A stretch of DNA of 64,000 bases. Origin: Dysidea avara. Its lineage: Eukaryota; Porifera; Demospongiae; Dictyoceratida; Dysideidae. The notes under the pieces were generated by a model. That model ran no database searches. It was given only the letters and a program-made list of their open reading frames with translations, and was not told the DNA's origin. Location of the stretch: positions 21,021,226-21,085,225 of the forward strand of contig NC_089276.1 of the NCBI RefSeq assembly GCF_963678975.1. Direction: 5' to 3'. The first letter of the stretch is position 1, and every line of letters begins with the position of its first letter. Both the position numbers and the translations under genes were made by a program. Positions 1,562-48,400 of this stretch are shown here, piece by piece.

Positions 1562-4500
1562 GTACAGTAAGTTACACTACTTGTAGATTTCAAAACAGTT
1601 AAATGCGCCAAACACTTTAAAATACACCATGAAGAAAAGATTAATTGAACAGGAAATCAAGTAACTAGGGCAGTTTACTGGCAGCAAGTGAAAATCTTTG
1701 AAATGTTATTGAGTTTCTCTATAACATGCAATTCACTTTCTATTTCAAAAAATCTTGCAATAAAATTGTCCCATTTGCAGGTTTGGTAATACTCACAGAG
1801 CTCATAATAGGCATTTGACAACCCAATTTTTGGTGTTACCTTATAGTAAATAAAATTAAATTGTACTAATTTTTGCTACAAAAGTGTGGTTATGTCCAAA
1901 TGACTCAATGTTACATCCTACTACAAGAGAGTCATGACATAATGCACATGTACGTGTGTGACACACACCCACAATTGCTCCAAGTGTTTTGATATGAAGA
2001 TTTTTTATTGATGTATCTTTGTTTGTTCTATTAGTTATAACATGTCTGGTACTTTCTGCTCCTGAAAATGGAATGATTAGTTGCTCACCAGGAAATGATA
2101 GTCCAGGAGACACATGTACATTGACATGTGATGACGGTTTTGAAATTAGTGGTACTCAGAGTAGGACCTGTCAAGATGATGGAACCTGGAATGGTGTAGA
2201 TGATACTGTGTGTACAGGTGAATTACATGACCAGCAGATTGCAAAACTGATACAGTATAAAGCCACTAACATAAAATCAATGCCAAAGATATCATATCAG
2301 TGATCATCACACACACACACACACACACATACACACACACATGCACACGCACGCACGCACACACACACACACAGTGTTACTAATAAACTGGTGAAGTTCA
2401 GGCTAGCCAGTTATGCTTTGAAAATAGCCTGTTGTGCTTTTGAGCAGTGCTAAAAATCCAGCTCAAAATTATGCTGGCATATTTGGAGAAAGCCTGGTTC
2501 CAGGGTCAAGCACTGTCTAGTATCTGAGAGCTCTAAGCCACAATGCATTTATAGTGTATGTTGAATATCCATCTTTCTACACTGTAAACTGCTTTCAATT
2601 CGAAATTGTCAGTTTGAATAAATTTACAATAATAATGATTTGCTGTTGCTGTCTGAGGAGAATATAATCCTGCATTCACAATATCCTTAAAAACACAATT
2701 GTTTTGTTTACAGCATCAAAATAGTATAATGCTTATTTTAATATTAAATGTGAATTACATTAACAAGCTTGTTAAGTGGCTTTAAGTGCAAAATTAGATT
2801 CTTCTTCAGTGTACTGTACATTATAATTTGACTAAATGTTATATTCTGTTCATTGTAATTACATTATCACATATTGTCTTAGTTATAACATGTCCGGTAC
2901 TTTCTGCTCCTGATGATGGACAGATCAGTTGCTCACCAGGAAATGATAGTCCAGGAGACACATGTACATTCACATGTGATGATGGGTTTGAAATTAGTGG
3001 TACTCAGAGTAGGACATGTCAAGATGATGGAAAATGGAATGGTGCAGATGATACTCTGTGTACAGGTACAGTAAGTTACATAACTTGTAGATTTCAAAAC
3101 AGCTAAATGCACAAAACGCTTAAAAATACACCATGAAGAAAAGATTACTTGAATAGGAAATCAAGTAACTAGGGCAGTTTACTGACAGCAAGTGAAAATC
3201 TTTGTAATGTTATTGAGTTTCTCTATAGCATGCAATTCACTTTCTATTTCAAAAAATTTTGTAATAAAAATGTCCCATTTGCAGGTTTGGTAATACCCAA
3301 AGAGCTCATAATAGGCATTCGACAACTCAATTTTTGGTGTAACCACAGCACCATTGCATTTACAACAAATTTTACTAATTTTTGTTACAAAAGTGTGGTT
3401 ATGTCCAAATGACTCAATGTTACATCCAACTACAAGAGAGTTACGACATAATACACATGTACATATGTGACACACACCCACACTTGCTCCAAGTGTTTTG
3501 ATATGAAGATTTTTATTGATGTATCTTTGTTTGTTCTATTAGTTATAACATGTCCGGTACTTTCTGCTCTTGAAAATGGAACGATTAGTTGCTCACCAGG
3601 AAATGATAGTCCAGGAGACACATGTACATTGACATGTGATGACGGTTTTGAAATTAGTGGTACTCAGAGTAGGACCTGTCAAGATGATGGAACCTGGAAT
3701 GGTGCAGATGATACTGTGTGTACAAGTGAGTTGCATGACCAGCAGATTGCAAAACCGATACAGTATAAAGCCACTAACATGCATATCAATACCAAAATAA
3801 TCATCGGTGATCATCACACATACACGTACGCATGCACGCATGCACACACACACGTAAGCAAAGCAAAAGAAAAACAAAGCCTCCGGCAGCCATGCGAAAC
3901 ATAGCTATTACCACCCCACTGGGATGCCTGTGCACCACTCAGGCACTTAAGCCTTGTGCAGCAAATCCTCCTGGGGCAGGGCTAGTAACCCGCAGAAGGA
4001 CTGTCCAGGTATCATGGAGAGAGGTTGTGGAACCTTCCACAACGACCTCAACACCACTAAGTGAGACAAGGACACTTGGGCATTTGCTTTCCCAGTTTAC
4101 ACCAGGTACCCATTGATGTTACAGCTGGGTGGGCTGCTTCCCCAGTTGACACCAGGCCACCAGGTCCCCATTTAAACAGCTGGGTAGACTGGAGCAATGT
4201 GAGAAAGAAAAGTTTCTTGCTCAAGGAAACAACAAAAATACCAAAGTGGTTCAAACGGGAATCGAACCTAGGACCTTCGATTACCAGGCCGATGCCCTAA
4301 CCACTTGGCTATGCTGCACACACACATATACTCATGCATGCATACAGTGTTGTTCAGTATTGCACCAATTATGCTTTGAAAATAGCTTTTGAGCACTGCT
4401 CAAAAATCCAGCCTATTATACTCAAAATTATGCTTTCTAGAGTTGGCTGTTTTATTAGAGTATATCAGTGGTTCCTTACTGCATGCTGAATTAGAGTAAA

Positions 4501-14073: not shown

Positions 14074-15000
14074 TCAGATATACCTGTTAAATGCGTTGCT
14101 TTTCCAGCGGCCAAGAATTTGTATGTGAGAGTCAGGCAGTTTGGCTAGAGATGCAGACGTTGCTGCCCCAATCCGAAGGCTATGTGAGTTATAGCGGCGC
14201 TTATCGAGTTTGAGGCTGACCATCAGGGACTGGAGGCCTGCACGAAACATGGCTCCCGTCCAGCCATTTCCTTCTTCAGTGATGAAGAGTGGGCCTGGTT
14301 GTTCACTCCTTCTGCCGAGGTATGAAATCATTGCTTTTATTGGACATACCAAGCTATCTGTGGCACCCATGTGCACCTTGGCACCCTGCCTGAATGGGTC
14401 TGTTTTGGATTCTTTGAGGGACAGTTGCAGGAGACGGGGTTTCTTCCTGTTGTCAACTGCAATATCCTTGAGAGATAGGTGTCGTGATGGATCATAGGAG
14501 CCTTCTGTAGGAATTGTAAACTCGCTGACTCTTAAGAACCCAAAAAAAAGGCAAGACAGCACATAGCCCAGAGTGTGGTATTATAATAGTAAGGAGGTTT
14601 CTTTGATAGGAGGGCTTTTATGTTATAGAGCATCTGGATGGTAATCGGCAGTCGGGTTTTTCCTCAGTGCATGCCTGCTTGGCGCTTTTTGATTCCCCTT
14701 AAGATGAGATGGAGCCTAGGAGTGATTTGGCGGTTGAAGTGGTTATGAAGCCCCTTGCATACATGCATGTGTCTAACTGCTGATAGATACACCTTGATAG
14801 TTCCCTGCGAGATGTTGGAGGTAGCTAGGTGCGATATGAACAGAGTTAGGGTGCACTCGGATGTTGGGATCGGGTGAATCCTTGCCATTTTGCAGAAGTT
14901 AACATATCGTCTTCGTCCAGCCGTGTAGGTGTTTCTGCTGGATTTGGCCAGCCCATGATGTAGTAGCTTTTGGGCTTTGTTCAGTAGATTGTTGAGGTGA
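14074..15000 (-). pseudogene. Tyrosine recombinase (DIRS-type), broken
   Basis: The N-terminal core-binding part (LLHHGLAKSSRNTY, then RRYVNFC and a segment to KKRQAGMH) reads from about 15000 to 14664. A TGA follows, then the same frame resumes. A run of T near 14545 then shifts frame into the catalytic domain (to 14074). The first arginine is in FLRVSE, a lysine in KESKTDP, H-x-x-R in HSLRIG, and the likely tyrosine nucleophile ends LGRWKSNAFNRYI. It would catalyse integration of a circular DNA copy. One stop and one frameshift make it inactive. Confidence 0.85.
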
Positions 15001-15206
15001 GTACTCCTTGGTAGGTCTACAAATGGAATTTAAGTATATATGTGTGGCCTTGTTTGCAAGTGTCTATTGGGATTTTGTAACAAGAATGGCAAATAAATTA
15101 TCAACTAAGTTAATCATACAGCAATTACAATGAACAGCATAAATCAATTACACTGAACAACAAGTGTGTGGTCAATTATGTTGTAGCATTGTTTTATGTG
15201 AGCTCA

Positions 15207-16090
15207 TTAAGTATGTGGTTTTTTATTTCTTGCAGGTGGAGACCCTTGCAGTGTATTGATGGTTCGCTTGAAGTGACGAAGAAAGGAGGGAGAAGTCCAG
15301 TCTTGTCTCCGGGGTGATATGAGCTTCAACAGTGACATTAGGATTGATGCAGGGGAGCGGCAGGTGTGAGGGTGTAGCTTTAAGAATTCTGTTGATCTGT
15401 TTCTGGATAACTGGTCTGCGGCAGTATTCGACGTGCCTGGAATATGGCAAGCTGAGATCTTTATATCAAAATGAGCTGAGAAGAACCAGAGACAGCGTAA
15501 GAGGTGCATGACCATTATTTCCTTTGAGGATCCTTTGGTAATGGAGTCAACAACACTGCTGTTGTCACGGTGGAATTCCACTCTGCTGCCTGATAGTAGT
15601 GGTCCCCAAATAGCGCAGCTTAAAACAATTGGTGCTAACTCCTTCGCCATTACGGTATGTCGATTTGTGCCCAGTCTTTTGACCATGCTAGTTGCAGCCA
15701 CTGAAATCCAAATACTGCTCCACAGCCCCAGGACCCTGATGTGTCTGAGGAAATTATATAGTCTGGAGTGGAGCCGTTGATAAAACTGAGCCTGTTCCAA
15801 TGTGTGATGAAGAGGTGCCACCACCTAAGATCTGCGCGGAAGCCGCTTGTGAGACGCGTAAAGTGAGATAATTTTTTGAGGCGAGCTGCTAGTCTGTACA
15901 TTCTGGACACAAAGGTCCTTCCTGGTGTTACCACCTTAGTGGCATGCTGCAGCAAGCCTACCAGGGATAAGATATCCCTTTTTGGTGTTTTTCTGCGAGA
16001 TAGCCAAGCTGAAACTTGGTTCTGGATTCTTGAGAGTTTTTCATCAGGTAGGCGGGCCAGCATGAGTTGAGTATCCAGAGAGATTCCCAA
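15207..16090 (-). pseudogene. Reverse transcriptase thumb and RNase H region, frameshifted
   Basis: From 16090 the frame gives FLGISLD and then the RLPDEKL thumb typical of DIRS elements, followed by the RNase H start (IISSDTSGSWGCGAVF). A one-base shift near 15655 moves to a second frame carrying KELAPIV, HRDNSSVVDSI and HIPGTSNTAADQLSRN, which supply the remaining RNase H acidic residues. It ends near 15207. The palm/YxDD region is not here. Confidence 0.8.
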
Positions 16091-16095
16091 AAAGG

Positions 16096-16470
16096 TTAGA
16101 GATTGGGGAAGGGGCTTTCAACCTTCTCTAGGGCAAGAGGGTAGTTCTCTACTGTGTTAGGGTGTTGAAGAGCACAACTCAGGTTTTGCTTGACGGATTT
16201 CAATGGAGTTAATTGCTCTTTGAAGCCAATGCGAAAGCCCTCTGTGATACCGGAAATAAAAAAGTCGACCAATGGTCTGTTAGGGTGATCTACCAGCAAT
16301 TTTTTCCAGTTGCTTGCATCTAGTGGTGTGTTGACTGCCCTGGCCGCAGGTGGTACTTTGACATCAGATAGCTGGTGGCTCAGGTGATTGGTCCAAGATG
16401 AGATCCAGTCACTGTAGTTACAACGCAAGTCCTTAGTGTGCACACCAATAATATGTTGTTCCGACAACAC
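16096..16470 (-). pseudogene. N-terminal polymerase segment of the DIRS-type element
   Basis: The frame contains TPLDASNWKKLL and LVDFFISGITEGFRIGF, the stretch that precedes the reverse transcriptase palm in DIRS polymerases. It then runs into the thumb region within a few bases at 16090-16110, and in another frame. The whole palm has been deleted. Confidence 0.75.
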
Positions 16471-16623
16471 TGCGAGGGGATAAGGTGTCGATAATTAGAC
16501 TGTCAGCATTGTGCATACTTATCACCACACATAATATTGCATAATATTATATTGACTAAATAGTGTTATTGCACAACAAATCATATGGAAAGAAAAGAAA
16601 CTACTATCAGTATTGGCCTAAAG

Positions 16624-18297
16624 TCAGTTAACAAAGAAAGGAAAAAACAACAAATCAATCAAGTCAAGATTGGTTGTGCTGCCTGTCCTTCTGCCTGTAT
16701 GGACACTGGGAGGCCTTGTGATTCTTGTCTTGGGCTCTGGGATTATGAACATATCGGTAGCAAATATGCTTGAAGCGGCAGGGCGACCGAGAGCATCCAT
16801 TAGGATTTTCGTTCCAGTCCAGGCAAATTGGTTGGTATTGATATTGGCGTTGTGACCGTTGGGAAGGTTTGAAGCATAGGGGGTGGAGCCTGCCTGCTGA
16901 CGACTCTGAATAGCCCTTTCTGGGGAAGTCATATTCCAGAGTGTAACATCTATAACAGACCATAGAGCATTCTGAGAGGCCGATGCTTTTAGGCGAAAGC
17001 GACGATCATAAATAACCCACTTGCCTTCGCGACAGTCCATTGATGCCCCAATTATTAGGCTCTGGTATCCTAGGAGGTCAGCAATTCTCTAGGGTTTATG
17101 GTGGGAAATAATTGCCATATATACTGCAAAGCACTGGATCCAATCAATTATATCTGTCACTGTAGGAAGTCGCTTGCATGATGCGACCTGCCCTTCATTA
17201 ATGTTGAGGTCAGCTGAGTCCAGGTGGCTTGGCAGAAGTTCTGCCATCTCAACAAACAATCCATCCTCCACGCGCTTCATCAGTCTGGATGGGATGGGAG
17301 GGAGGCCATTACTTATTAACACTAGTGGGCATGACTTCTCCGAAGGGGATGTATCATCCGAATCATGGCTGTCAATGCTAAGGAGATCATCGGAATCTGG
17401 ATGGACTTCCAACTGCCGGATATGAGGGAGTTCACAGCCATCAGTGGACTCGTCTGCAGAACAGGACACAAGAGACAATGAGAAGGGTGGGGGTGGGGAT
17501 TGAACAACGTCTGATTTTTTAACATTATATGGCCTGCATTAAGTAAACATAGTAAGAGGCTTAGGCATGGTATTATGAGATACCCCTTGAATGAGGCTAG
17601 AGCATGGTGCATACTACAATTGGAAGGCTTTTTTTTTTTTTTTTTTGGAGGAACAGTAAGAGGCTTAGGCATGGCGTAATAAGGATGGCTATTAACTGAA
17701 GGCTAGAACATGGTGCGGGCTACATAAAGTATGGTGTACATATAAAGCATAGGCTTGTGCATGGTGCGCCTTACAAGAAGCCTTTACATGGTGCGCGTTA
17801 TAAAGAAGGCTTTGCATAGTGCACTTTATTATTTTGTAAAACGAAACATTACACGGACATAACACGCACTACTACATGACTTACCAAAATCCTCGTGGTC
17901 GGCGTCTCCTTCGTTGGAACTGTCGTCCGTCTCAGGAGTAGGCGTTGTGCGAGTAACGCGACGACGGGTTGCTTGGCTAGGCTGGTCTGTGTTCTTCTGC
18001 TTGTGACGACTTGCTCTCTTCTGGCGTGTAGAGGAACTTGGGGTGGCCTCCCTCCGCAGACTGTGGCATGCCCCTGACCACTGCCGACACGATGTCCGGA
18101 ATGTCAGCAGTTGTTAAGGGACGCGTCTTTGATCTCTTCTCTCGTCGGGCTCCGGGACTTTCAGCTTGTCTTCCCCGCTTCGTTCCTGCCTTAGCGGAAG
18201 ATTCGGTGGCGGGCGAGACAGCGGATGATCTAGTTTTTAACAGGAGGCTTCTTAGGCGGGGATTTCTTCTTCTGCTGAGCGTTTTTTCCTGTTCCAT
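16624..18297 (-). pseudogene. Gag-like region of the DIRS-type element, in pieces
   Basis: Three frames in order. 18297-17977 is a basic N-terminus ending in a LTTADIPDIVSAVV motif. 17478-17089 is acidic, then LPPIPSRLMKRVEDGLF and TDIIDWIQCFAVYM. 17040-16624 with its overlapping frame 16963-16664 encodes KWVIYDRRFRLKAS and a cysteine/histidine cluster (CLDWN, GCSRSPCRFKHIC, H, C). Stops and shifts separate them. 17540-17830 between pieces is a degenerate repeat of AGGCTTAGGCATGGTG-like units, possibly an insertion. Confidence 0.65.
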
Positions 18298-22709: not shown

Positions 22710-24747
22710 CCACAGAGTTTAGTTGCAAGATTTGACTGGTGGGGACTATTCTACGGAACGTAACGGAACGGAACGGAATGATGGACTAAACCACGGAACG
22801 GAACGCTTTCTCAAATTGAAGCTTGCAATTTACCATTGCTGAAACTTCCCTTATAAGTTAGCAGTGACATCTCCAGTGGGTGGTTAAACATAAGATTAAA
22901 AGAATTAACGGATCGATTGTGGGTTTTTGTTGGTTGTCATTAGTAACGAAGTATTATTGTGGGATGAGCTGTATCAGTGATGTTCATCCATACGGAAGGG
23001 AACTTTATGTGAGCTGTTTTTCTTATTTAGACTTTAGAAAACAGTTTTGGCCGGTCTTTCAAGTCATAAGTCAGTGTATAAATAAAGCAAGCAGGAAGAT
23101 ACTGGTAACAGGAAAGAGCCAGCTGAATTAAACTTCAAGAATTTTGTGCAGTGTGTGAGGAGCAAATATTTTGGCAGACCGCAAGGAGGGTATATTCTGC
23201 AAACATCACTGAAGTGTAAGCATGGAGTTATTTATATATTAACAGCTGGTGCAGTGGACTAATGCCGTATTCAATAGTGAGCTGATTTTATCTGTTGCAC
23301 AATTCAAGGATGTGTCTGACTGCTAGCCTTGAATCAGGCTAAATGCCAAAACTCCAAGATCAGCCAAATCTCTATTATAAGCCGCATGTGAAACCATGCC
23401 CGTAGCCACCAGGCAAACGTGATTTGGACCAGGATGTGTGTGTAATTTCAATGTATCTAGTCAGACCTGAAATGGAACACTCACATTAATTACATACCAC
23501 CTAAGAATCCTAGGATTTCTTAAGTGTAACATTTCACATGCTTAACTTCAAACAAAACAGGTTAAATTTGTTCGTCTATTTTCAAGTGATTCCCAGTCCA
23601 GCTGGTCCATGAAATTACAATGGGATCACATGTATTTGTTACAGTGCGGGCTGTCCTGTGTTGGATCTACTCTAGAGTTTAGATTTCAAGGTAGACTCAC
23701 TGCCAATGTACTGACACTAGTACTGTTGTAGCATGTTTAAGTGGAGGACAAATGAAATAGTAATGCTAGATTATTTATGTATACAAATTTTTCATAATGA
23801 AATTGATATCCCATTTTGATTTGTACTTACACTTTGCAACATATTCAAGAGCAAGAAGCTACCACACTTAATCTCCAACCACTGTCATTAATTAACCAAG
23901 ATCTCACTAGCCTGTAATCAAGACACACGGTAGTGTGTCGTGCGGCCCAAGAAGCCGGTGCGTAAAACCCGTGAGTATATTGACAGGAAGAAAGAAAACG
24001 CAATTTTCGCACCTCCGTAGCTCTGTGCTTCCTTGGTGAAACAAGACGATTTTTGCTGTGGACATTCCCTCCAACTGCAGCACTCCACATTCCAAATTTG
24101 AGCGAAATCGCTTAGCGCGTTCCCGAGATATGCGACTTCAAAAATTGGCTCAGTTTCTTCGTTTTTTTCTTTTTATTTTTCTTTTTCTTGTCGCACACTT
24201 ACAAAAACTGCTATAAAACGCGAACGCGTTATCCGATTGCCTTGAAATTTGGCACACAGAAGGGGATATAAAGGCGCATCTCGGTACCAACTTTGGCTGG
24301 AATACGATAAACAGGCAAAGAGTTATAAGCGATTATTAACGAAAAATAACACCAATATGTTGTCACGCCTACAGGGTAAACCGCCTATGGGAAGAAGCTG
24401 AAAATCGGTGGGTGGATAGGTTAACTATTGAACCTCAAACCTTTTGTGGTTTGAAAGAAATCGAGCTAAAAACCAGGAAGATACAACGAAAAAACCAACA
24501 GTGTGTAACAATTACGCAATCGAGATTAGCTAATAAAAAAACGACTGCTTGTCACGCCTACCAGATAAACCGCTTAGGGTAATGCTTTGAAAATCGTTGT
24601 ACAGATGGAGTAATCATCTTAGAAAGGCTCATCAATGGTGTAGAAGAATCAGACTTAAAGCCACGGAGTTATAACACGAAATCCAACTTGGTGCGGCAAG
24701 TGCGAGATCGAGATACTCTAATAGAGCAGTCATCCTAATAGAGCAGT

Positions 24748-27700
24748 CACCCTGAAGAGAATTCAAGAGATCAGCTAGAAATAAGAAACCTGTATAGAGA
24801 TCAGCTACACACAAGTCACCCTGTAGAGAGATCAGCTAGAAGAAGTTACCTTGTAGGGAGTTCATGCAACTATGGAAAGAGATAGTTCAGCTAGAAAAAA
24901 TCACCTTGTAGAGTTCAGCTACAAAGAAACCACCATGTAGAGAGTTCAGCTACAAACAAATCGCCCTGTGGAGAGATCAATAGAAGAAGTTACCTTGCAA
25001 AGAATTCAGCTACAAAGAAACCATCATGTAGAGAGTTCAGCTACAAACAAATCTCCCTGTAGAGAGATTAGCTAGAAGAAGTTACCTTGTAGAGAGTTCA
25101 GCTACAAAGAAACCATCATGTAGAGAGTTCACCTACAAACAAATCTCCCTGTAGAGAGATCAGCTAGAAGAAGTTACCTTGTAGAGAGTTCAGTTACAAA
25201 AAAACCACCATGTAGAGAGCTCAGCTACAAACTAGTGACCTTGTAGAGACATCAGCTAGAAGAAGGTACCTTGTAGAGAGTTCAGCTACAAAGAAACCAT
25301 TCTTTAAAGAGCTCAGCTGCAAACAAATCACCTGTAAAGAATTCAGCTACAAATAAATCACCCTGTAGAAAGATGAGCTAGAAAAAGTTACCTTGTAGAG
25401 AGTTCAGTTACAAAGAAACCACCATGTAGAGAATTCGGCTACAAACTAGTGACCCTGTAAAGACATCAGCTAGAAGAAGTTACCTTGAGAGAGTTCAGCT
25501 ACAAAGAAACCATTATTTAAAGAGCTCAGCTGCAAACAAATCACCTATACAGAATTCAGCTACAAACAAATCACCATGTAGAGAGATCAGCTAGAAGAAG
25601 TTAACTTGCAGAGAGTTCAGCTACAAAGAAACCATCATTTAGAGAGTTCAGCTTCAAACAAATCACCTGTAGAGAGTTCAGCTACAAACAAATCTCCCTG
25701 TAGAGAGATCAGCTAGAAGAAGTTACCTTGTAGAGAGTTCAGTTACAAAAAAACCACCATGTAGAGAGCTCAGCTACAAACTAGTGACCTTGTAGAGACA
25801 TCAGCTAGAAGAAGGTACCTTGTAGAGAGTTCAGCTACAAAGAAACCATTCTTTAAAGAGCTCAGCTGCAAACAAATCACCTGTAAAGAATTCAGCTACA
25901 AATAAATCACCCTGTAGAAAGATGAGCTAGAAAAAGTTACCTTGTAGAGAGTTCAGTTACAAAGAAACCACCATGTAGAGAATTCAGCTACAAACTAGTG
26001 ACCCTGTAAAGACATCAGCTAGAAGAAGTTACCTTGAGAGAGTTCAGCTACAAAGAAACCATTATTTAAAGAGCTCAGCTGCAAACAAATCACCTATACA
26101 GAATTCAGCTACAAACAAATCACCATGTAGAGAGATCAGCTAGAAGAAGTTAACTTGTAGAGAGTTCAGCTACAAAGAAACCATCATTTAGAGAGTTCAG
26201 CTTCAAACAAATCACCTGTAGAGAGTTCAGCTACAAACAAATCTCCCTGTAGAGAGATCAGCTAGAAGAAGTTACCTTGTAGAGAGTTCAGCTACAAAGA
26301 AACCACCATGTAGAGAGTTCAGCTACAAACAAATCGCCCTGTGGAGAGTTCAATAGAAGAAGTTACCTTGCAGAGAGTTCAGCTACAAAGAAACCATCAT
26401 GTAGAGAGTTCAGCTGCAAATAAATCTCCCTGTACAGAGATCAGCTAGAAGAAGTTACCTTGTAGAGAGTTCAGCTTCAAACAAATCACCCTGTAGAAAG
26501 ATCAGCTAGAAGAGGTCACCTTGTAGAGAGTTCAGTTACAAAAAAACCACCATGTAGAGAGCTCAGCTACAAACTAGTGACCTTGTAGAGACATCAGCTA
26601 GAAGAAGTTACCTTGTAGAGAGTTCAGCTACAAAGAAACCATTCTTTAAAGAGCTCAGCTGCAAACAAACCACCTTTACAGAATTCAGCTACAAATAAAT
26701 CACCTTATAGAAAGATGAGCTAGAAAAAGTTACCTTGTAGAGAGTTCAGTTACAAAGAAACCACCATGTAGAGAATTCAGCTACAAACTAGTGACCCTGT
26801 AAAGACATCAGCTAGAAGAAGTTACCTTGAGAGAGTTCAGCTACAAAGAAACCATTATTTAAAGAGCTCAGCTGCAAACAAATCACCTATACAGAATTCA
26901 GCTACAAACAAATCACCATGTAGAGAGATCAGCTAGAAGAAGTTAACTTGTAGAGAGTTCAGCTACAAAGAAACCATCATTTTAGAGAGTTCAGCTTCAA
27001 ACAAATCACCTGTAGAGAGTTCAGCTACAAACAAATCTCCCTGTAGAGAGATCAGCTAGAAGAAGTTACCTTGTAGAGAGTTCAGCTACAGAGAAACCAC
27101 CATGTAGAGAGTTCAGCTGCAAAGAAATCACCCTGTATAAAATTCTGCCACGAACAAATTGCCCTGTAGAAAGATCAGTTAGAAGAAGTTACCTTGTAGA
27201 GAGTTCAGCTACAAAGAAACCATTCTGTAAAGAGCTCAGCTGCAAACAAATCACCTGTACAGAATTCAGCTACAAACAAATCACCCTGTAGAGAGATCAG
27301 CTAGAAGAAATTACTTTGTAGAGAGTTCAGCTACAAAGAAACCACCATGTAGAGAGTTCAGCTGCAAACAAATCACCCTGTAGAAAATAAAGCCACAAAC
27401 AAATTGCCCTGTAGAAAGATCAGTTAGAAGAAGTTACCTTTTAGAAAGTTCAGCTACAAAGAAACCATTCTGTAAAGAGCTCAGCTGCAAACAAATCACC
27501 TGTACAGAATTCATCTACAAACAAATCACCCTGTAGAGAGATCAGCTAACTTGTAGAGAGTTCAGCTACAACGAAACCATCATTTAGAAAGTTCAGCTTC
27601 AAACAAATCACCTGTAGAGAGTTCAGTTACAAACAAATCTCCCTGTAGAGAGATCAGCTAGAAGAAGTTACCTTGTAGAGAGTGAAGCTACAAACAAATC

Positions 27701-28618
27701 ACCCTATTGAAAGATCAGCTAGAAGAAGTCAACTTGTAGAAAGTTCAGTTACAAAGAAACCACCATGTAGAGAGTTCAGCTACAAACTAGCCACCTTGTA
27801 GAGACATCAGCTAGAAAAGTTACCTTGTAGAGAGTTCAGCTACAAAGAAACCATTCTGTAAAGAGCTCAGCTGCAAACAAATCACCTGTACAGAATTCAG
27901 CTACAAACAAATCACCCTGTAGAGAGATCAGCTAGAAGAAATTACCTTGTAGATAGTTCAGCTACAAACAAATCTCCCTGTAGAGAGATCAGCTAGAAGA
28001 AATTACCTTGTAGAGAGTTCAGCTACAAAGAAACCATTCTGTAAAGAGCTCAGCTGCAAACAAATCACCTGTACAGAATTCAGCTACAAACAAATCACCC
28101 TGTAGAGAGATCAGCTAGAAGATGTTACCTTGTAGATAGTTCAGCTACAAACAAATCACTCTGTAGAATGATCAGTTAGAAGAAGTTACCTTTTAGAGAG
28201 TTCAGCTACAAAGAAACCATTTTGTAAAGAGCTCAGCTGCAAACAAATCACCTGTAGAGAATTCAGCTACAAACAAATCACCCTGTAGAGAGATCAGCTA
28301 GAAGAAATTACCTTGTAGATAGTTCAGCTACAAACAAATCACGCTGTAGAAAGATCAGTTAGAAGAAGTTACTTTGTAGAGAGTTCAGCTACAAAGAAAC
28401 CATTTTGTAAAGAGCTCAGCTGCAAACACATCGCCTGTACAGAATTCAGCTACGAACAAATCACCCTGTAGAGAGATCAGCTAGAAGAAGTTACCTTGTA
28501 GATAGTTCAGCTACAAACAAATCTCCCTGTAGAGAGATCAGCTAGAAGAAATTGCCTTGTAGATAGTTCAGCTACAAAGAAACCATCATGTGGAGAGTTC
28601 AGCTGCAAAGAAATCACC
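24748..28618. repeat. 30-31-bp minisatellite, about 125 units, with higher-order structure
   Basis: The basic unit TGTAGAGAGTTCAGCTACAA plus a variable 11-bp tail occurs in several forms: tails AGAAACCACCA, ACAAATCACCC and, in the 30-bp form, GAAGTTACCT after GATCAGCTAGAA. Forms alternate in ordered sets, and longer blocks repeat, for example the CTCAGCTACAAACTAGTGAC block at about 25222, 25771 and 26563. Each unit has TGTAG and CTACA at the ends of its core, able to pair. Stops in many units preclude a long protein. Confidence 0.95.
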
Positions 28619-28889
28619 ACTGCCCAAATTTCAAGGCAATAGCTCTTTCCAATCTGAAGTTATCAATTGTCAAAGTTGGCAAATTGGATGTGTGTGGAAG
28701 GCCCCTTTTTGCAAATCCGGTCACATATGTATTATATATATAATTTGTACATTTACTGATAAAATATTTAAAGTATATCTACTTCATCTTTACTTCTTCC
28801 TGTAGTAAAGAAAAAAAACATAGGTTAAAAAAGTCCCAAAGCTGGCCATAGGCCGGCTTTGGGGTATACAAATACAAAAAGAAATGAAA

Positions 28890-29205
28890 TCTAATCCAAA
28901 ACAGCCAAGCTGTAAAAAAGTGTGCGGCCCTCAGAAAGGCTATGGTGAAAAAAGATGTGAAATCCAAGGTGGCGGCCAAGAAATGGCTGTGATGGTAGGT
29001 TAATGGTAAAATTTTAATAACGACAATTCAGGTGAATTTTTGTGCCGCTTCACAAAATTTACCTGAATTGTCATTATTAAAATTTTTACCATTAACCTAC
29101 CATCACAGCCATTTCTTGGCTGCCACCTTGGATTTCACATCTTTTTTCACCATAGCCTTTCTGAGGGCCGCACACTTTTTTACAGCTTGGCTGTTTTGGA
29201 TTAGA
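28890..29205. repeat. 316-bp palindrome, tail of composite copy 1
   Basis: The arms start TCTAATCCAAAACAGCCAAG and close with its reverse complement. The centre is near 29046 (GTGCCGCTTCAC). Related palindromes lie at 39199-39508 and 42632-42861, and a half copy at about 45007-45180. Confidence 0.9.
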
Positions 29206-29267
29206 TTCACCTTACTGTAGTGATTTTATTGATTCATCTGTATGTTTTCTTCATTTTCCTTTGAAGT

Positions 29268-34963: not shown

Positions 34964-37900
34964 ATGGCTGTAGGTAGGGCTGCTGAGGTTGAGCCAACAG
35001 CAGTGTGTTACTTTTTTGATGAATATGATGATTACTATGGCTACCGTATTTGTGTTAACCTGATATCTGCTGGCATGATTAACATCCTTCTGTGTATCAC
35101 CTTGCTGATCATTGACCTGTTTATCCCATGTCTCAATTCTGGGGTAAGTTTATATACATTCAGCTACAGTACTGCATAATACATACCACTGATCAGCTGC
35201 CTATATAGCTACATCCATTGGTGCAAGTATCTGGATGCATGTAGCTAAGTCTTCTACAGACTGTTGTTAGTCCTTGCTGTATCTACTAGTATACTACGTA
35301 TTTCTTTACAGTACACTCGGCTGTCCCAGTTGTTCATAATGATCTGGGCCACAGTCATGGCAGTCTACATGTTGATCACTAGTGCATTGATAGCTAACCT
35401 CTACACCAGGTTCTGTGATCGTGAATGTTGTGAATGTGCAGAAGAAATATATACAAAGTTCATTATATTCCCAGTTTTTGGATTTTTCATCATGGTTGTT
35501 TGGGTAAGTTAACTGTACTGTATGTGTAGTCACATAATATAGATCTGCTGCAGTGAATGTATGGGATATTATTATACTTCAGTCATTCAGGAAAAAGAAC
35601 TAGTCAGTGATAAATATATACACAAATGAGCTATGTACACCTCTGCACTAAGATATGTTATGTGCATACAACTTTCTCTTGCAACTAATTAAGAAGTTTA
35701 AACATCACTTTAACCAGTGTGGCACTGGAGGGATAATTGCAGAACCTTTACAAGGTGGCCAAGTGGAAGTCTTTGAGTCAAGTGTCAGTCATGGGTATAG
35801 AGACTGATTAAGGGTTAATGTCTCCTAGTATATCTTTCAGTGTAAGTGACCTCTCGTTTCACAACTTTTTATGAAACTTAAAAGTCCCTTGTACATACTA
35901 GTAATATTTATAGTGGCAATAAATTCAAAGGAGAAAACATGGCTTGATTTCACTACAAACTTTAGCTATATAATTTACTCAATTTTGTACCATTTGTTTG
36001 TTTCCACAGAACCTTACTGCAGTGTTTGTTATTATATAGAGTGCTTCGATTAACAAGTTTATACAGGCTATACATTAACAGTTTTATCATATCAGGGGCA
36101 GCTCCAGTAGTGGGGTTTTGGAGGTTTCTAGAAACTGGTCAAGCAAAATTGAGATACCCTAATAGAGCAGTCACCCTAATACAACAATAATCTCTGGGGT
36201 ACATGCTCCCAAACCAGCATGTTTCACATGTTAGTGTACTTCTCATGCTAAGGTACAAGTGTATACAATCCTTTCTACAAAATTATGTACTATAAATCCA
36301 TGTAGCTATGAGCCCTGGCATCACAAAGTCTGGATTGGAAATCGGTCAAAATTCCTGGAGCAGGCCATACACATAGATATGACACTTATTGAAATTGTAA
36401 ATATCAAGACACACGATAGTGTGTCGTGCGGCCCAAGAAGCCGGCGCGCCACACCGTGAGTATATTGACAGGAAGAAAGAAAACGTCATTTTCACACCTT
36501 TGTATTTCGATGATACCTTATCCGATTGGAACTAAATTTGCTACAGAGTTGTCCGCCAGCTAGGGGAGTTTACATTCCACATTTGAAGGAAATCGCTCCA
36601 GCCATTTTCAAGATACGAGCTGCCAAAGTTTCGTTTTTTTTCTTCGTTTTTTTTTCTTCTTCGTGTTTTCGCACACTTGCAAAAATTGCTATAAACCGAA
36701 AACGTGTACTCTGATCGCCTTGCAATTTGGTGCACAGAAAGGGAGTCCAAAGGTGAATCCTAGTATCAAATTTGGTGCAAATTCGATGAACGGTTCAGGA
36801 TTTATTACCGATTATTCGCGTAAAACAAGATCGATATGTTGTCACGCCTACAGGGTAAACCGCTTCATGGAATGAGTTGAAAATTGCTATGTAGATGGAG
36901 TAACCATCGTAGGAGTGCCTTTTGGTGGTTTGAAAGGAATCGAGATAAAGACCATGGAGATATGACACAAAACCCAACCTATGTCACAATTACGCGATCG
37001 ATTTTTATGAATAAAACAGTATAAGTTTTTACGCCTATTAGGCAAACCGCTTAGCGCAATGAACTGAAAATCGGTGTATAGCTGGAATAATCATCATAGA
37101 AAGTCCTTGCAGTAGTACAGAAGAATCGGATTACAAACCACTGAGTTATGATTTGAAAGCCAACTCCGTGTAGCAAATGCGAGATCGAGATACTCTAATA
37201 GAACAATCACCCTAATAGAGCATTCAGCTAATTTATTTACTCCATTGTAGAATTCTATTACATTGCAAGTTATTCTGTAGGGAGTTCAGCTGCAAACAGT
37301 TAATCTTATAGACAGTTCAGCAAGAAGCAAGTCACCCTATAGAGAGTTCAGCTACAAATATATCGCTGTAGTGATTCAGAACATTACAAGTCACACTGAA
37401 GAGAGTTCAGCTATAAACAAGTCATGCACCCTGTAGAGAGTTCGGCTACACTCTCTAGAGAATTCAGCTACAAACAAGTCACTGTGGAGAGAGTTCAGCT
37501 ACAAAGAAACTACCCTGTAAAGAGTTCATCTATACAAACAAGTTACCCTATAGAGATCACCTGCAAACAAGTAACCCTAAAGAGAGTTCAGCTACAGACA
37601 AGTTACTTTATAGTTTATACAGTGTTCAGCTACAAGTAAGTCACTCTGTAGAGAATTCAACTACAAGTAAGTTACTCCGTAGAGAATTCAGCTACAAACA
37701 AGTCACTCTGTAAAGAATTTTGCTACAAACAAGTCACAGTGTAGAGAGTTCAGCAACCAAAATACTACTCTGTAAAGAGTTCAGCTATACAAACAAGTTA
37801 CTCTGTAGAGAGATCAGCTAGAAACAAGAGAGAGCTCAGCTAGAAGAAGTCACCCTGTAGAGAACTCAGCTGCAAAGAAACCCTGTAGAGAGATCAACTA

Positions 37901-39764
37901 CAAACAAATCACCCTGCAGAGCGTTCAGCTATAAACAAATCACCCTGTAGAAAGTTCAGGTACAAACAAATCACCCTATATACAGTTCAGCTACAAAAAA
38001 AAATCACTCTGTAGAGAGTTCAGCTACAAAGGAGCCATCCTGTAGAGAGTTCAGCTACAAATAAGTTATGCTACAGTGAGATCAGTTTGAAACAAGAGAT
38101 TCCATCTACAAACAAATTAACCAGGTGTAGAGAGTTCAGCTATGAACAGATCATCCTGTAGACAGTTCAGCTAGATACAAGTCACCCTATAGAGAGATCA
38201 GCTAGAGGAAGTCACCTTGTAGAGAGATCAGCTAGAAAAAAGTTGTCTTGTAGAGAGTTCAGTAACAAAGAAACCATCCTGTAGAGAGTTCAGCTACAAA
38301 CAAATCACCCTGTAGAGAGTTCAGCTGCAAACAAACCACCCTGTAGAGAGTTCAGCTACAAACAAATCAACCTATAGAGAGATCAGCTCGAGGAAGTCAC
38401 CTTGTAGAGGGATCAGCTAGAAACAAGTCACCTTGTAGAGAGTTCAGGTACAAAGAAACCACCATGTAGACAGTTCAGCTGCAAACGTATCGCCTGTAGA
38501 GAGTTCATGCAGTTAGAAACAAATCACCCTGCAGAGAGATCAGCTAGAAGAGGTCACCTTGTAGAGAGTTCAGCTACAAAGAAACCATCATGTAGAGAGT
38601 TCAGCTGCAAAGAAATCACCCTGTAGAGAGTTCAGCTACAAAAAGATCATCCTGTAGAGAGTTCAGCTAGAAGAAGTCACCTTGTAGAGAGTTCAGCTAC
38701 AAAGAAACCATCATGTAGACTCTGAGAGTTAAGCTGCAAACAAATCACTCTGTAGAGAGTTCAGCTAGAAGAAGTCATCTTGTAGAGAGTTCAGCTACAA
38801 AGAAACCATCGTGTAGAGAGTTCAGCTACAAAGAAACCACCATGTAGAGAGTTTAGCTGCAAACAAATTACCTGTAGAGAGTTCAGCTAGAAACAAATCA
38901 CCCTGTAGAGAGATCAGCTAGAAGAGATCACCTTGTAGATAGTTCAGCTACATTTCAAGTCACCCAGTAGAGAGATCAGCTGCAAAATAATATCCTGTGG
39001 GGAATAATGGGCATGTAATTAATATATGTATATAATTTGTATAATTACTAATAAAATCAAAATTAATTGAAGTATTAAAAATCTTCTTTAAGTTCTTTTC
39101 TTCTTCCTGTGGTAAAGAAAAAAACACATGGGTTAAAAAAGCCCCAAAGCCAGCCATTGGCTGGCTTTGCAGTATACAAATACAAAAAGAAGTGATATCT
39201 AATCAAAAATAGCCAAGTTGTAAAAAAAGGTGCGGCCCCCAAAAAGGCCATGGTAAAAAAAGATGTGAAATCCAAGGTGGCGGCCAAGAAATGGCTGTGA
39301 TGGTAGGTTAATGGTAAAAATTTTAATAACAACAATTCAGGTGAATTTGGTGCCGCACAAAATTCACCTGAATTGTCATTATTAAAATTTTTACCATTAA
39401 CCTACCATCACAGCCATTTCTTGGCTGCCACCTTGGATTTCACATCTTTTTTCACCATGGCCTTTTTGGTGGCCACACCTTTTTTACAGCTTGACTGTTT
39501 TTGATTAGGTTATCTTAACACAAATTCACTACAATTTTGACCTACATAGCATGTTAAATGGTATTGTCATTTATAGCACCGCACATATGAACATGCAAGA
39601 GAGAATGTAAACCACATAAGACATGGGTACATATATTTTATTTACACATGTATTGTATACATACGTAAGTCAAATTCTGTACAATGTATATACAAGTGTG
39701 TTTTTCTTATATTTAGGTAGTTATGGCTATAATCTCACTGATAAGGTTGATCATTGGCAAATAA
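34964..39764 (+). CDS. Small multi-pass membrane protein, three exons, 139 aa
   Basis: Exons 34964-35143, 35312-35503 and 39717-39764 join in phase 0 with GT-AG borders. The start is ATG 34964, with an acidic N-terminus rich in tyrosine and aspartate (FFDEYDDYYGY). Three hydrophobic segments follow: about residues 31-55, 67-91 and 110-138, the last split by intron 2. Between the second and third is a cysteine cluster (FCDRECCEC), possibly for palmitoylation or metal binding. The stop is TAA 39762-39764, after a short basic tail (LIIGK). I do not recognise the family. Intron 2 (4.2 kb) holds composite repeat copy 2. An upstream non-coding exon is possible. Confidence 0.7.
37240..38990. repeat. 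30-31-bp minisatellite, about 55 units
   Basis: The unit is the same as at 24748-28618 but more variable, with tails such as CAAGTCACCCTG and AAGAAACCATC. The first third is the most degenerate, and the last third resembles copy 1 closely. Confidence 0.9.
39199..39508. repeat. 310-bp palindrome, tail of composite copy 2
   Basis: Arms CTAATCAAAAATAGCCAAG and its reverse counterpart, centred near 39353. It is closely similar to 28890-29205. Confidence 0.9.
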
Positions 39765-41559: not shown

Positions 41560-42630
41560 ATGTATGGCTACTGTGGATAGCATCAGTTAAGTAGAAAGGA
41601 AGGCATACACTATTAGTTAAGTTATAAGTAGTTAGTTGTAATTAATTTGTAACATGTGTAGTTATTTAGTACCATATATGTTATGGGCTTCGGCTCAGAC
41701 CATTAATGCAGACTTGTTGCATTAAAAAGCCTTTAATATAAAACAAAAAATAAAAATACAATACTGTTAATAGTTGCATACAAATCTAGGAGGTCTGGGG
41801 GGGATGCCCCTCCTGGAACGTAATATAAAAGTTACACCCTGTGAGTAATACTACTATGTAGTGTTACTATGTTGACATTAGAATATAAACCATCATTAAA
41901 ATGTTACAAAACACATACAATTACGACACACTGATGTGCAAAAAGCACAGTACAGGAAAGTATGAAATAAAAATACTTAACCACTATATACAGTAGCTAC
42001 TGCACACATAGTGACACTCAAACAAGAACAAGACAAATCAAAACTTACACTACTTTAGTGTTAATCAGCCAATCTCATGCTAAAAATATTCATTAGGAGC
42101 AGCTATACTAATTGCTTTGTAAGCAGCTTCATCCCAACGTGGTTCTACAAATTTGCTGCAGACTGTTGAATAGTTGTTGTTTGTAGGGCTATATGTAACA
42201 GAGTCTGAAAGATAATCACCCAAGCAATCGATTTCAATAGACACTATAGACTAACATAGCCTAACTGAGCTAACTATGAGATTAACAGCTAGCTAATTGA
42301 TATTCACTCTTTCTGAACTCAGACTTGTGTTCATGAGTGGCATGGAGGTGCTCAGCAGAGTTGAATGGACATGTAGGTTCCCACTACCAGAAAAATGCCT
42401 TTCCCTTTGCCATGACAAGTTAAATCACCCCCATGGAATGTACTATGCAAGTAATTTCATGGGATATCATCGATTGCATCAGACTTTCATGGTATTTTCA
42501 TGCCACTGTAGAGATTCCATGATTACAATATCATGAAATGCTAAAATTCAGTGAAAAACCATGGGAATTTTCATAAATAGCTTGTGCCAATTTCAAATAT
42601 TTGGTAGAGTATGCTCTATAGCTAATCAAT
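41560..42630. other. Non-coding stretch with a LINE-like tail
   Basis: 41690-41760 (GGCTTCGGCTCAGACCATTA ... AAAAGCCTTTAATATAAAAC then A-rich) resembles a retroposon 3' end. Nothing else is recognised. Confidence 0.35.
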
Positions 42631-42631
42631 T

Positions 42632-42861
42632 CAAAAATAGCCAAGCTATATGAAAAGGTTGTGGCCTGTGAAAAAGTTGTGAAATCAAAGGTGGCAGAAT
42701 GGCTGCACTGATGTTAATGATAATAATGCCTTTGTGCATTATTAAAAATTATTATCATTAACATCGTTGCTGCCATTTCATGGCCACCACCTTTGATTTC
42801 ACAACTTTTTTGTCCAGGCTTTTTGAAGATTGCACCCTTTTATACAGCTTAGCTATTTTTG
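42632..42861. repeat. 230-bp palindrome related to the composite tail
   Basis: Arms CAAAAATAGCCAAGC and GCTTAGCTATTTTTG, centred near 42740. Like the composite tails it is next to a phrase AAAGCCAACCATAAACTGGC (42899-42918). It has no adjacent minisatellite, so the palindrome can exist alone. Confidence 0.85.
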
Positions 42862-44310
42862 CATGGATTTCACTTCTTTAAATACTGTAAATATACCCAA
42901 AGCCAACCATAAACTGGCTTTGAGGTTTGTTTTACACAAATTTTTCTTCTTATCTACAGATGTAATGAAGATAATATAAGACTTCATATAAAGTTGTATT
43001 ATAGTGCCTGTATTTATTTGCAATAGTGAAAGTAAATTCCTTCCAAGTTAGGTGTACATGCATATGACTGTACTATTTGTCTAATAGGATTTAACAGTGG
43101 CTATTCTATTAGAGTATCTCAATTTTTCATGTAAAAAATGTTATAAGTTACGTACAGTTGCTCAATTTATAGCAAAGCAAGTCCTGCACCTTTTATGCTA
43201 GAATACAATTTTCAGCCTGTTGTAATACAGCAGAAAAGGCATATAGCCTGTGATCCTGCTCGTGTAATTAAAAAACTAAATCATTAAAGATAATAATTAT
43301 CAAATTGAAGTTATTTTGATTCAGTCAATACTACTTCTGAATCATTGGTATGTTATTCCAAGCATTTAGCTATTGATCTTATGGTTACTTCAAACAGTTC
43401 TTTGAGCATGCAGCTTGAATAATTTGAGATTTTGTTTAGGGTTGAAATGATCATGTACTTTCTTTAGTTAATGATCAAGCACTCACGGATACTAGCTACT
43501 TGTAGTCGCCATTTTACATGTTTTATACTGACTTTAAGCAGTTAACTGCTTTTTCAAGTAACAACAATGATACACACACTGTATTGAAGTACTGATGTTT
43601 GTGTTCCTGACAAGAAATTATGCCAATCAATCTTCATTGTGTCATTACCTGATGGCAAGTGCATCATGTAAGCTGGGTCATGTGATCTTAACTGTTACAA
43701 GTACTTGATTATATACCAATTTTACTATACAAGTACCAAAATCCTTAATGAGTACTTGCAGTAATTTGTTTCAGCCCTAGTTGTGTCCTCTTGTAACACT
43801 AGACAATTGCTGGTGAAAAAACACTTTGGGCTGTAAACTGACATTGCCATGTAAATATTGTTACATCATCACAATGTCTTCAGTAAGATAGTGAAGGGAT
43901 ATCTGGAGCACTTTGACAATCATCACATTTTAAATTGAAAAAAAAGTTCTGGAACATATTTGATAGCTATAGCTCTTCTTTGTAGCTACCCTCTCCAACA
44001 TCTGACATGCAGTCACCATTAAAAACACATCTCTGTACCATAACACATTCAGTGGTAACTCTTCTTTGTACCCTCTTTTCCTGTTTCTAGCTTCCACTTC
44101 CCTTGACAATGTCCCCGTCGCTGTTTTTATCCCATCCTGACAGGTGCTGGAGTTACCTTTTTTGGGCACACTTTTGTTGTTATATAAAATTAACAGGAAT
44201 TGGTTCCATAGATTGTAGAGGGCGCTTTTGCACCCTCTACTATCTATAGAACTAATTGTCATGATTCTAGTAGTCCAAAGTTAGAGTTAGGGTTGGGATT
44301 TGGGTTCAGC

Positions 44311-45459: not shown

Positions 45460-48400
45460 GTAAGATTGATACAGTAAGCAACTGTTAAATGCTTATATGC
45501 AATTTATTGTTCTACAAATTGCTTGTTTAGGAAATGTAGATCCTCCAACTATTTCAAGGCATCCAACTAATATGACAGTCAAACTAGAGAACAGTACTAC
45601 CATGGTGTCTCTGCGATGCGAGGCAAACGGAGCAACATCATATAATTGGGAGAGACAGAGTGGTAGTATTCCATCTCGTGCCACATGGATTAATACTAAT
45701 ACTCTTACGATCATTAACCTCCAAATAAAAGATGCTGGTTACTACCGATGTGTAGCTATTAACAACAATGGCCAAAGATATTCTAAATATTGTAGGATAA
45801 TTATTAATGGTACAAACAAATCAAATAGTTGTATTACTTGTGCATATATAGCTCCTCAATAACATTATCTCTACTTGTACAAGTAGATATTGCACTACAC
45901 ACAACAGTACTACTTAGCTAGTAGTATATGATAGTTTGGGGGTTAGAAAATGTAGGGGGTTTCTTAGGGGGTTGTAGTTGAGGTGAGAGAAATTTTGTGT
46001 TATTTTGAAAGTGCATTACAGAATAAGCTTCACTTCATCTAACCAATCAGGAGCATGGGTTTCAAAATGTTCAGGAAGAATTTTACACAGTGCTTTGAAC
46101 ATTCAGACATCAGGCCAGGATTCCGTTATGGAGTAGTACTCTTATCTCTAGTTGTTTTCCAAGTAATTATATTATTGCAAGGAACAATACTATATGATGA
46201 TACCATAATAAAGCAATCATTTATCTTGTAGGCAGACTGGCCAAAGATTTATTACAAGAAGGAGAATATCTGAAGTCTTATTATAACATACTGCATAGTC
46301 CCTACCAATACTACTCAACATCTCAACATATATCCTAGAATATGTACATGTGTGATTTTAGTTGTTACCCATACTATTGTAAATGTTACTCAAATATGTA
46401 TCAAAACCTATTGTACACCTGACTGTTTTGTTGGATTTATATTAGAATATCTGGTGATCCAGATCATTTTTAGTTAGCTAGCATGCAGCTGAATAACTAA
46501 GACTTTTAATATTGAGGTGAATATGTGTTATAACATCTCATGTTTATACATAGTGGCATCTCCCAAGCTGATAAAAGATAAAAGCTCCTGCATCACAACA
46601 TGTTAAACTCACACAAACTGCTATATTTACATATTCAGCTACTGGTTATAGTGTTCAGTATGAATGGACAGTTGGGATCATTTCCTAATAAAGTGACTGG
46701 TATAAACACCAATACCCTGGTGATCCCAGATGTAAGATCATCTGATGATAACACATATACTTGTGTGGCAAGGAATGAGGGAGGGAGAGTTTCATCACAT
46801 ATTGCTCAATTGACTGTTACAGGTATATGATGGCAATATGTCAATTTAGTTTAAGTCACATTTTGGCTTTTAATTGTATAGGATTACCAGAGGTGACTGT
46901 AGAGCCATCTATCCAGAAAATAAAAGTGACACATAATGCTACATTCTTTGCAAGAACCAAGGGCATAGGCATGGAGAATTTTGTGTATCAGTGGAGAAGA
47001 TCAAACCGAATCGTTCCTGGAGAAACTGATCCCACTCTTGTCATCCATAATGTTGCAATCAAGTCTTCAAATTATCATACATACTGGTGTGAAGTGAGAA
47101 ATGAGTACGGGGACTCTGTGACTTCTGAAAGGGTTAAATTAATAGTCACACGTGAGTATTATTTTATTGACCTACTTATTGTGAATTTGCATGTATACAA
47201 TCTAGGAAACGTACCACATTTCTCTATTCAACCACAAAGTCAAACTGTATTATTTAATCAAAAGGAAAAGTCTGTTTCTTTACGTTGTGCTGCTATTGGA
47301 GCTAAGTCATATGCGAGGGAAAGAGATGGGGTGGTAGTACTCCATATCGTGCCATTGGAGTGAACACTGACACTATCACTATTGTTAACATACAACCAGA
47401 GGATGATGGCATCTGCCGATGTGTAGCTACCAATGCTAGTGGTACTAGTTATTCCAAATATGCCACATTAAACGTTACTGGTATGTATGTCACTGGAACT
47501 GTATGGTAGCTATTGCCTTGGAAATAAGTACCATACTGTCCAATGCAGTGTGTAACTCTCACCTTTAACACAATAGTATCACTATAAACAGAAATGCATA
47601 CACTAAGTATATTACAGTCGAATTCTTAGTCCTTCAGTGTCCATTTCATTATGAAGAGGCTAAATTGTACTAGTTTTCTAGCCCTTGTTTTGATACAGGT
47701 GTAGAGTACTTACTATAACAAATCACAATAGAATGTACTATTGCATGAGTATGTTTAAAGGATGCATCTACACATAATTTCATTGTTACAGTACCTGTAC
47801 CGATAATCACAAGCCATCCAAGAAATGTAACAACCCCAGTTTATACTACTGCTACTTTCACCTGCAAAGTTAAAAGTTCTGTAAGAGTGAAAATTACATG
47901 GAAGAAGCACCATTCTAGTCTTCTGCCAGTAGCAGCCAGAATAAAAGTTAAGAAGTCAAGAAATGAAGTCACTAGTACTCTGAAAATTACCAGTGTTATT
48001 GGCTATTATTCTGGAGAGTATTACTGCATTGCACAAAATAAGTTTGGACGTGTCACTTCCAAATATGCCAATTTAAATGTTGAAGGTAATTTTAAAAGTG
48101 TTTGTGTGTCATGAATAGCAAGCATTGCATCCATACTCCATTTACTTACAGTTCCATGTCCAGTGCTACTTGTAGCACCAGTAAACACTACAACACTAAC
48201 AGGAGGAAGTATACATCTGAAATGCTTAGCTTTTAGCCTTGGTAGTTTGAAGTATGCTTGGAAGAGGATGGAAGGCAAGAGTTTACCAGCAACTGCACAA
48301 AGGATCCCTACTATAGATGGCTCACACATTGTGGATACATTAAGCATTACAAATGTACAGCATGCTGATGAAGGATGGTACTGCTGTCTTGCTAGCAATG

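Follow-up and report, generated by a model that had tools for sequence, protein, structure and literature searches.

A 64,000-nucleotide stretch of Dysidea avara contig NC_089276.1 (hereafter the window; C5:21021226-21085225) contains two copies of a dispersed repeat that carries its own minisatellite, and the assembly (550.8 Mb, 108 contigs) was searched for further copies. As an earlier note on this DNA had described, both window copies are built from the same five parts in one order: a start hairpin, a head of about 800 bp, a junction motif, a minisatellite and a palindromic tail. The copy structure drawn in that note was retained, but its left borders lay 3-4 bp too far inside and were moved to 23918 and 36404. 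The last base of copy 2 (39509) was counted by hand on the tail string. The features, in window positions, are as follows.

23918..29205, plus strand: copy 1, the whole element from TC to TTAGA, inserted between A 23917 and T 29206
23918..24717, plus strand: head, about 800 bp (BLAST), without an open frame of at least 120 amino acids
23922..23939, plus strand: 5′ terminal hairpin GACACAC-GGTA-GTGTGTC, 4 nt from the TC start
23940..23948, plus strand: GTGCGGCCC, inverted near the 3′ end as GGGCCGCAC
24718..24753, plus strand: junction motif CTAATAGAGCAGTCACC, 2.1 copies
24766..28618, plus strand: 30-31-bp minisatellite with higher-order periods of 61, 122 and 183
28614..28725, plus strand: right half of another dispersed repeat, whose whole form has ends TATGTGACCGGATTTGC...
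28835..28863, plus strand: internal hairpin with a 13-bp stem (fold z -6.05), the stem covarying between copies and lost in some
28888..29205, plus strand: terminal palindrome of copy 1, center in the "flip" orientation
29182..29194, plus strand: 3′ hairpin ACAGC-TTG-GCTGT, 11 nt before the end, weak alone (z -0.61)
36404..39509, plus strand: copy 2, same anatomy, diverged subfamily with a head 73% identical
39195..39509, plus strand: terminal palindrome of copy 2

When head plus left flank and tail plus right flank were compared with the window using BLAST, the two copies were 73% identical in their heads and 87% in their tails; similarity started and ended at the element borders, the flanks were unrelated, and the tails aligned only from 28733 onward. 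No stop-to-stop frame of at least 120 amino acids was present in copy 1 or copy 2. The 5′ hairpin had a DNA fold z of -2.23, equalled by 6 of 200 shuffles, and in a scan of the window no Rfam RNA motif or ribozyme matched it at the gathering threshold. The 9-bp motif GTGCGGCCC starts at nt 23 from the 5′ end and, inverted, at nt 33 from the 3′ end; an inverted match of 9 bp was reached in 35 of 2000 mononucleotide shuffles. Paired stem changes in the 13-bp-stem hairpin (CTGGCC/GGCCGG, CTGGCC/GGCCAG, CCGGCC/GGCCGG and CCAGCC/GGCTGG) were seen by eye, rather than counted, among 33 distinct copies, several of which lacked the hairpin. The other dispersed repeat, whose right half lies inside the copy 1 tail, has inverted ends (TATGTGACCGGATTTGC...) and occurs also at L102:1707-1950 and L105:2042-2300.

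Dispersal of the family and linkage of its parts

The 32-bp start, including the leading A, had 4,789 exact matches in the genome and a 34-bp tail motif had 4,263, with no matches to the reversed-pattern control of either; the window copies belong to an interspersed family of several thousand members. From the exact heads and a mean length of about 4.3 kb, taken from 40 linked copies, this unusually abundant family was estimated at about 20 Mb, or 3.7% of the assembly. Those 40 copies came from 100 heads (the matches listed, C1:0-9.8 Mb) and had a same-strand tail motif 1.7-5.3 kb downstream. Random placement gave a mean of 2.7 linked heads and a maximum of 8 in 500 trials, while the opposite-strand and upstream controls gave 3 and 4. 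Exact-motif linkage overlooks mutated partners, and unlinked heads and tails were therefore sampled. The array lay directly upstream in 19 of 20 unlinked tails (sampled from 29), the twentieth, L124, having an oppositely oriented head there, and 18 of 20 unlinked heads (sampled from 60) ran into the array, the others lying near a different tandem array (L134) or unrelated DNA (L138).

Head, array and tail thus travel together. The mobile unit with an internal array that the earlier note had suspected is supported, and the variation in length is borne out by the spread of head-to-tail distances; the note had also named, as an outcome that would tell against such a unit, parts found mostly apart, which is contradicted by the 40 linked heads and by the array at most of the sampled unlinked tails and heads. 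At L134 (C1:51480-52080), a unit with an exact 5′ start, another tandem array (unit approximately CACACAAGATTACAAGACAC) replaces the 31-bp array about 600-1200 bp into the unit. Equal 322-bp gaps between neighboring copies were dismissed as coincidental because the sequence in the gap differs between L110 and L111. By eye, the minus strand at window positions 42620-42980 carries a decayed relative of the palindrome together with the hairpin ahead of it, and the minisatellite seems to be missing there.

Termini, target site and terminal palindrome

A|TCAAGACAC opens 29 of the 30 best heads, with flanks that differ, and so gives them the 5′-TC start of the Helitron superfamily; the remaining head, L026, lacks the first bases. 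The right ends read terminate in ...GGATTAGA|T. Both flanks were available for 23 pairs (17 readable right ends among 20 linked copies fetched, plus six earlier pairs), and the direct repeat beyond AT was 0-2 bp in 21 of these, 5 bp in one and 7 bp in one, the two exceptions being L065 and L003. Three empty sites are known because insertions landed in sibling copies: GTAGAAGA-AT-CAGACTT (L067), ACAA-AT-TATATAT (L013/L052) and, as an imperfect match, ATACAT-AT-ATT (L097). Compared by eye, each kept one AT. This inspection of flanks and empty sites, which the earlier note had proposed, points to insertion between A and T without a longer target duplication, and a 2-bp AT duplication fits the same sequences. 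The first 10 bp of the right flank were 80% AT as compared with 65% farther out (P = 3.8e-7, 57 flanks), and the left flank was 66% AT against a background of 63% (P = 0.18, 59 flanks). For Helraiser, the part of the published account used here likewise gives AT target dinucleotides with AT-richness most marked on the 3′ flank (PMC4778049).

AT flanks each insertion on both sides, and formally the three empty sites would also allow for duplication of AT. This is what an ISL2EU-type element (PHIS superfamily) would produce by cut-and-paste transposition with duplication of the 2-bp AT target, its C...G ends and the inverted GTGCGGCCC motifs serving as terminal repeats. YqaJ domains, typical of ISL2EU, are also very abundant in this genome (622 first-look candidates, of which at least 150 were scored); many lie in open frames, and this abundance suggests recent activity of ISL2EU-type transposons. 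The available section of the ISL2EU description gives an AT-duplicating cut-and-paste group with the target A|AT|T and repeats that usually begin with GG (PMC4482050). The family has neither this target nor GG-starting terminal inverted repeats: A precedes the AT in 12 of 58 cases and T follows it in 15 of 57, and the termini read CAAGAC/CTAATC. A one-sided AT preference would not be expected of a symmetric transposase complex, nor would the stacked 5′ ends described below be expected from cut-and-paste transposition, and we regard an ISL2EU-type origin as unlikely.

The long palindrome of the earlier note is present in both copies but is better described as a near-palindrome, which measures 319 bp in copy 1 (arms 98.6% identical) and 315 bp in copy 2 (arms 92.7% identical); the 13-bp-stem hairpin before it is a separate structure. 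Its asymmetric center occurs in both orientations, with 758 exact matches to the flip form and 721 to the flop form genome-wide, at least one palindrome (C1:32228495) being counted in both totals. Among the best-matching tails (L031-L060), 20 of 21 exactly scorable centers were flip; orientation within this lineage is therefore mostly inherited, and a coin toss at each cycle was not supported. A flop center on a flip-lineage tail at L043 represents a separate inversion, the inversion at L111 is confined to the innermost part of the center, and in an older subfamily L023 and L042 have the same 22-bp center, reversed.

Inversion of the center is explained most simply by recombination between the arms, and fold-back copying is the bolder reading. 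According to the latter, a Helitron-like element would have its palindrome copied by fold-back priming, in the style of a rolling hairpin, so that the center flips and the arms are homogenized. The two exact orientations, the exact inversion in the older subfamily as well and the 92.6%-99.3% identity of the arms within 11 copies agree with this. The same arm, however, was 91%-99% identical between eight copies of different lineages, and since arms are not clearly more alike within than between copies, the evidence for homogenization is weak. The predominance of flip in one lineage implies that the center is not reset each cycle, and inter-arm recombination would invert it as well. Fold-back copying as the general route is thus quite unlikely. 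That the palindrome is re-copied by fold-back priming in some cycles, which would place the family between the rolling-circle replication of Helitrons and rolling-hairpin replication of the parvovirus type, is doubtful.

Stacked 5′ ends and the proposed rolling-circle model

Three of the 30 best heads (L008, L014 and L016) have in front of them a truncated copy, comprising the first 80, 78 or 62 bp. Pattern searches identified 25 such stacked junctions genome-wide, 18 at 57-81 bp and 7 at 28-50 bp, including runs at C1:31680735-31680918 and C11:14248414-14248479. The right flanks of L016 (L112) and of L008 and L014 (L040, L043) do not resume the truncated head, and these three are therefore not simple nested insertions. 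With junctions placed by match length, so that any indel would shift the position, the next base of the truncated copy was A at 18 of 18 junctions of the long class (10 distinct lengths), compared with 45% expected. A is favored at the longer junctions and is not an absolute rule.

Stacked 5′ fragments can also arise through template jumping, as in a retrotransposed element whose RNA is copied at a nick, and the one-sided target preference would suit such a route. Retrotransposition is nevertheless very unlikely, because 21 of the 23 pairs have no target duplication, the 3′ end is defined and bears a palindrome without an A-tail, and neither window copy contains a reverse-transcriptase frame. 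Segmental duplication, or unrelated repeats side by side by chance, might be suggested by the piece of another repeat inside the copy 1 tail but is hardly credible, since thousands of copies have identical ends in different flanks and the two window copies share no flanking DNA; one duplication that included the flanks was the outcome that, for the earlier note, would have told against a mobile unit.

Discrete ends, insertion at AT lacking a longer target duplication, an asymmetric target, terminal hairpins, stacked 5′ ends and an array linked to the ends indicate that the family is probably a high-copy, non-autonomous, Helitron2-like rolling-circle transposon. For such an element, a Rep/helicase supplied in trans would nick after A at the TC start, one strand would be peeled off through the head and array, the peeling would halt at the 3′ hairpin or palindrome, and the strand would be joined into an AT-rich target patch. 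Aborted starts joined to a fresh 5′ end would give the stacked termini, and array length may change between transpositions by tandem-repeat slippage or unequal exchange. The palindrome would act as an oversized terminator; from time to time its center would invert in a source copy and be passed on in that orientation.

Several observations weigh against assignment to a Helitron2-like family. The 5-bp 3′ hairpin is weak by itself, the inverted motif lies beside the 5′ hairpin and not within it, and the 3′ end is TTAGA in place of the CTRR of canonical Helitron1. At the short stacked junctions the next base was A in 3 of 7, with 23% expected, contrary to a prediction written beforehand. Imperfect repeats of about 20 bp occur on both flanks of L003 (with L051) and L065 (with L066); since no such repeats occur at the other 21 of the 23 pairs, these may be older target repeats. 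Driven by these two loci, left-right flank similarity exceeded permutation at 25 bp (P = 0.0002), and windows of 10, 15 and 40 bp gave P values of 0.03-0.05. The earlier note had called for an autonomous partner with a Rep/helicase or other transposase to be sought, and no RepHel gene with family termini was found among the Helitrons with readable ends (three 3′ and two 5′), which differ from the family.

Helitron Rep domains are plentiful in the genome (at least 150 matches among 230 candidates, many in long open frames). The Helitron ends that were read, 3′ from two copies and L101 and 5′ from two copies, were TCTATATTAT... and a hairpin followed by CTAG, unrelated to those of the family. 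The exact 32-bp start followed by a different base was found at 17 places; when the lists were compared, none lay within about 100 kb of the Rep or YqaJ matches listed. A Helitron at C1:9286572, with a tail motif 7.5 kb downstream, was considered as the partner and rejected: the Helitron remnant in L101 has a canonical end of its own, and a complete family copy lies apart from it.

Thousands of highly similar copies with readable ends amount to a natural experiment on the start, stop and target choice of Helitron-like elements, in which initiations that failed or recurred would be recorded in the stacked 5′ termini, and the copying of a transposon end in the two-state palindrome. The family is also a clear route for scattering a minisatellite through a genome.

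Elsewhere in the window, adjacent open frames at 14074-17702 on the minus strand resemble a DIRS-type tyrosine-recombinase retroelement. A Phage_int_SAM_4 match lies at 14664-15029; the recombinase and polymerase were read by eye in the DIRS-like frames and had no Pfam match. Immunoglobulin-domain exons (45470-48114, plus strand), a Sushi-domain exon (3452-3904, plus strand) and a reverse-transcriptase fragment (52811-53704, minus strand) are also present.

Comparison with known elements

The family was compared with known systems using the available parts of the published descriptions. ISL2EU elements share AT at the insertion site, but their target context and terminal repeats do not fit, and neither does the one-sided preference. 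Canonical Helitrons (Helitron1, Helraiser) have in common with the family the 5′-TC, insertion between A and T, AT-richness that is greatest on the 3′ flank and a 3′ hairpin about 11 nt from the end; the family differs in lacking the CTRR end and in having a 5′ hairpin and a long palindrome.

Closer are Helitron2 and the Fusarium elements FoHeli1 and FoHeli2. The Helitron2 anatomy described in the portion used comprises hairpins at the 5′ and 3′ ends together with asymmetric inverted repeats, of which the 5′ repeat lies 0-2 bp from the terminus, in the hairpin (PMC3627910). FoHeli elements have the first 31, 65, 73 or 85 nt repeated at the 5′ end, as given in the relevant passage (PMC5148889), and the family has multiple 5′ termini of similar size (28-81 bp at the 25 junctions). 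Both groups share with the family a TC(A) start with a tip hairpin, a 3′ hairpin, which in the family is weak, an inverted motif upstream of the 3′ hairpin and no target duplication. In the family, however, the inverted motif follows the 5′ hairpin, whereas in Helitron2/FoHeli it lies inside; the end is TTAGA rather than ATTTT; and a long palindrome and a minisatellite are added, with no RepHel partner found in the search above.

HINE/DINE-1 elements, which are non-autonomous Helentrons and include satellite-carrying oyster elements, resemble the family in high copy number, lack of coding sequence, a 5′ hairpin, a central tandem array, a 3′ palindrome and absence of target duplication. The HINE anatomy in the parts of the sources used consists of subterminal repeats, central tandem repeats and a 3′ palindrome (PMC4067079, PMC7492417). 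Their targets are T-rich (TT) and their 3′ palindromes short (5-10 bp in mite families), as opposed to an AT target and about 320 bp here, and by target the family is not a HINE, because HINEs use T-rich sites. A long palindrome with two center orientations was not encountered in the portions of the open-licence PMC literature on Helitron2 and HINEs that were compared. The "undescribed element type" proposed in the earlier note was not upheld: the described anatomy of Helitron2/HINE-type rolling-circle elements already includes hairpins at the start and the 3′ end and tandem repeats in the interior, without target duplication. The general kind of element is already known; what is unusual in this family is the TTAGA end together with a palindrome of about 320 bp whose center occurs in two orientations.

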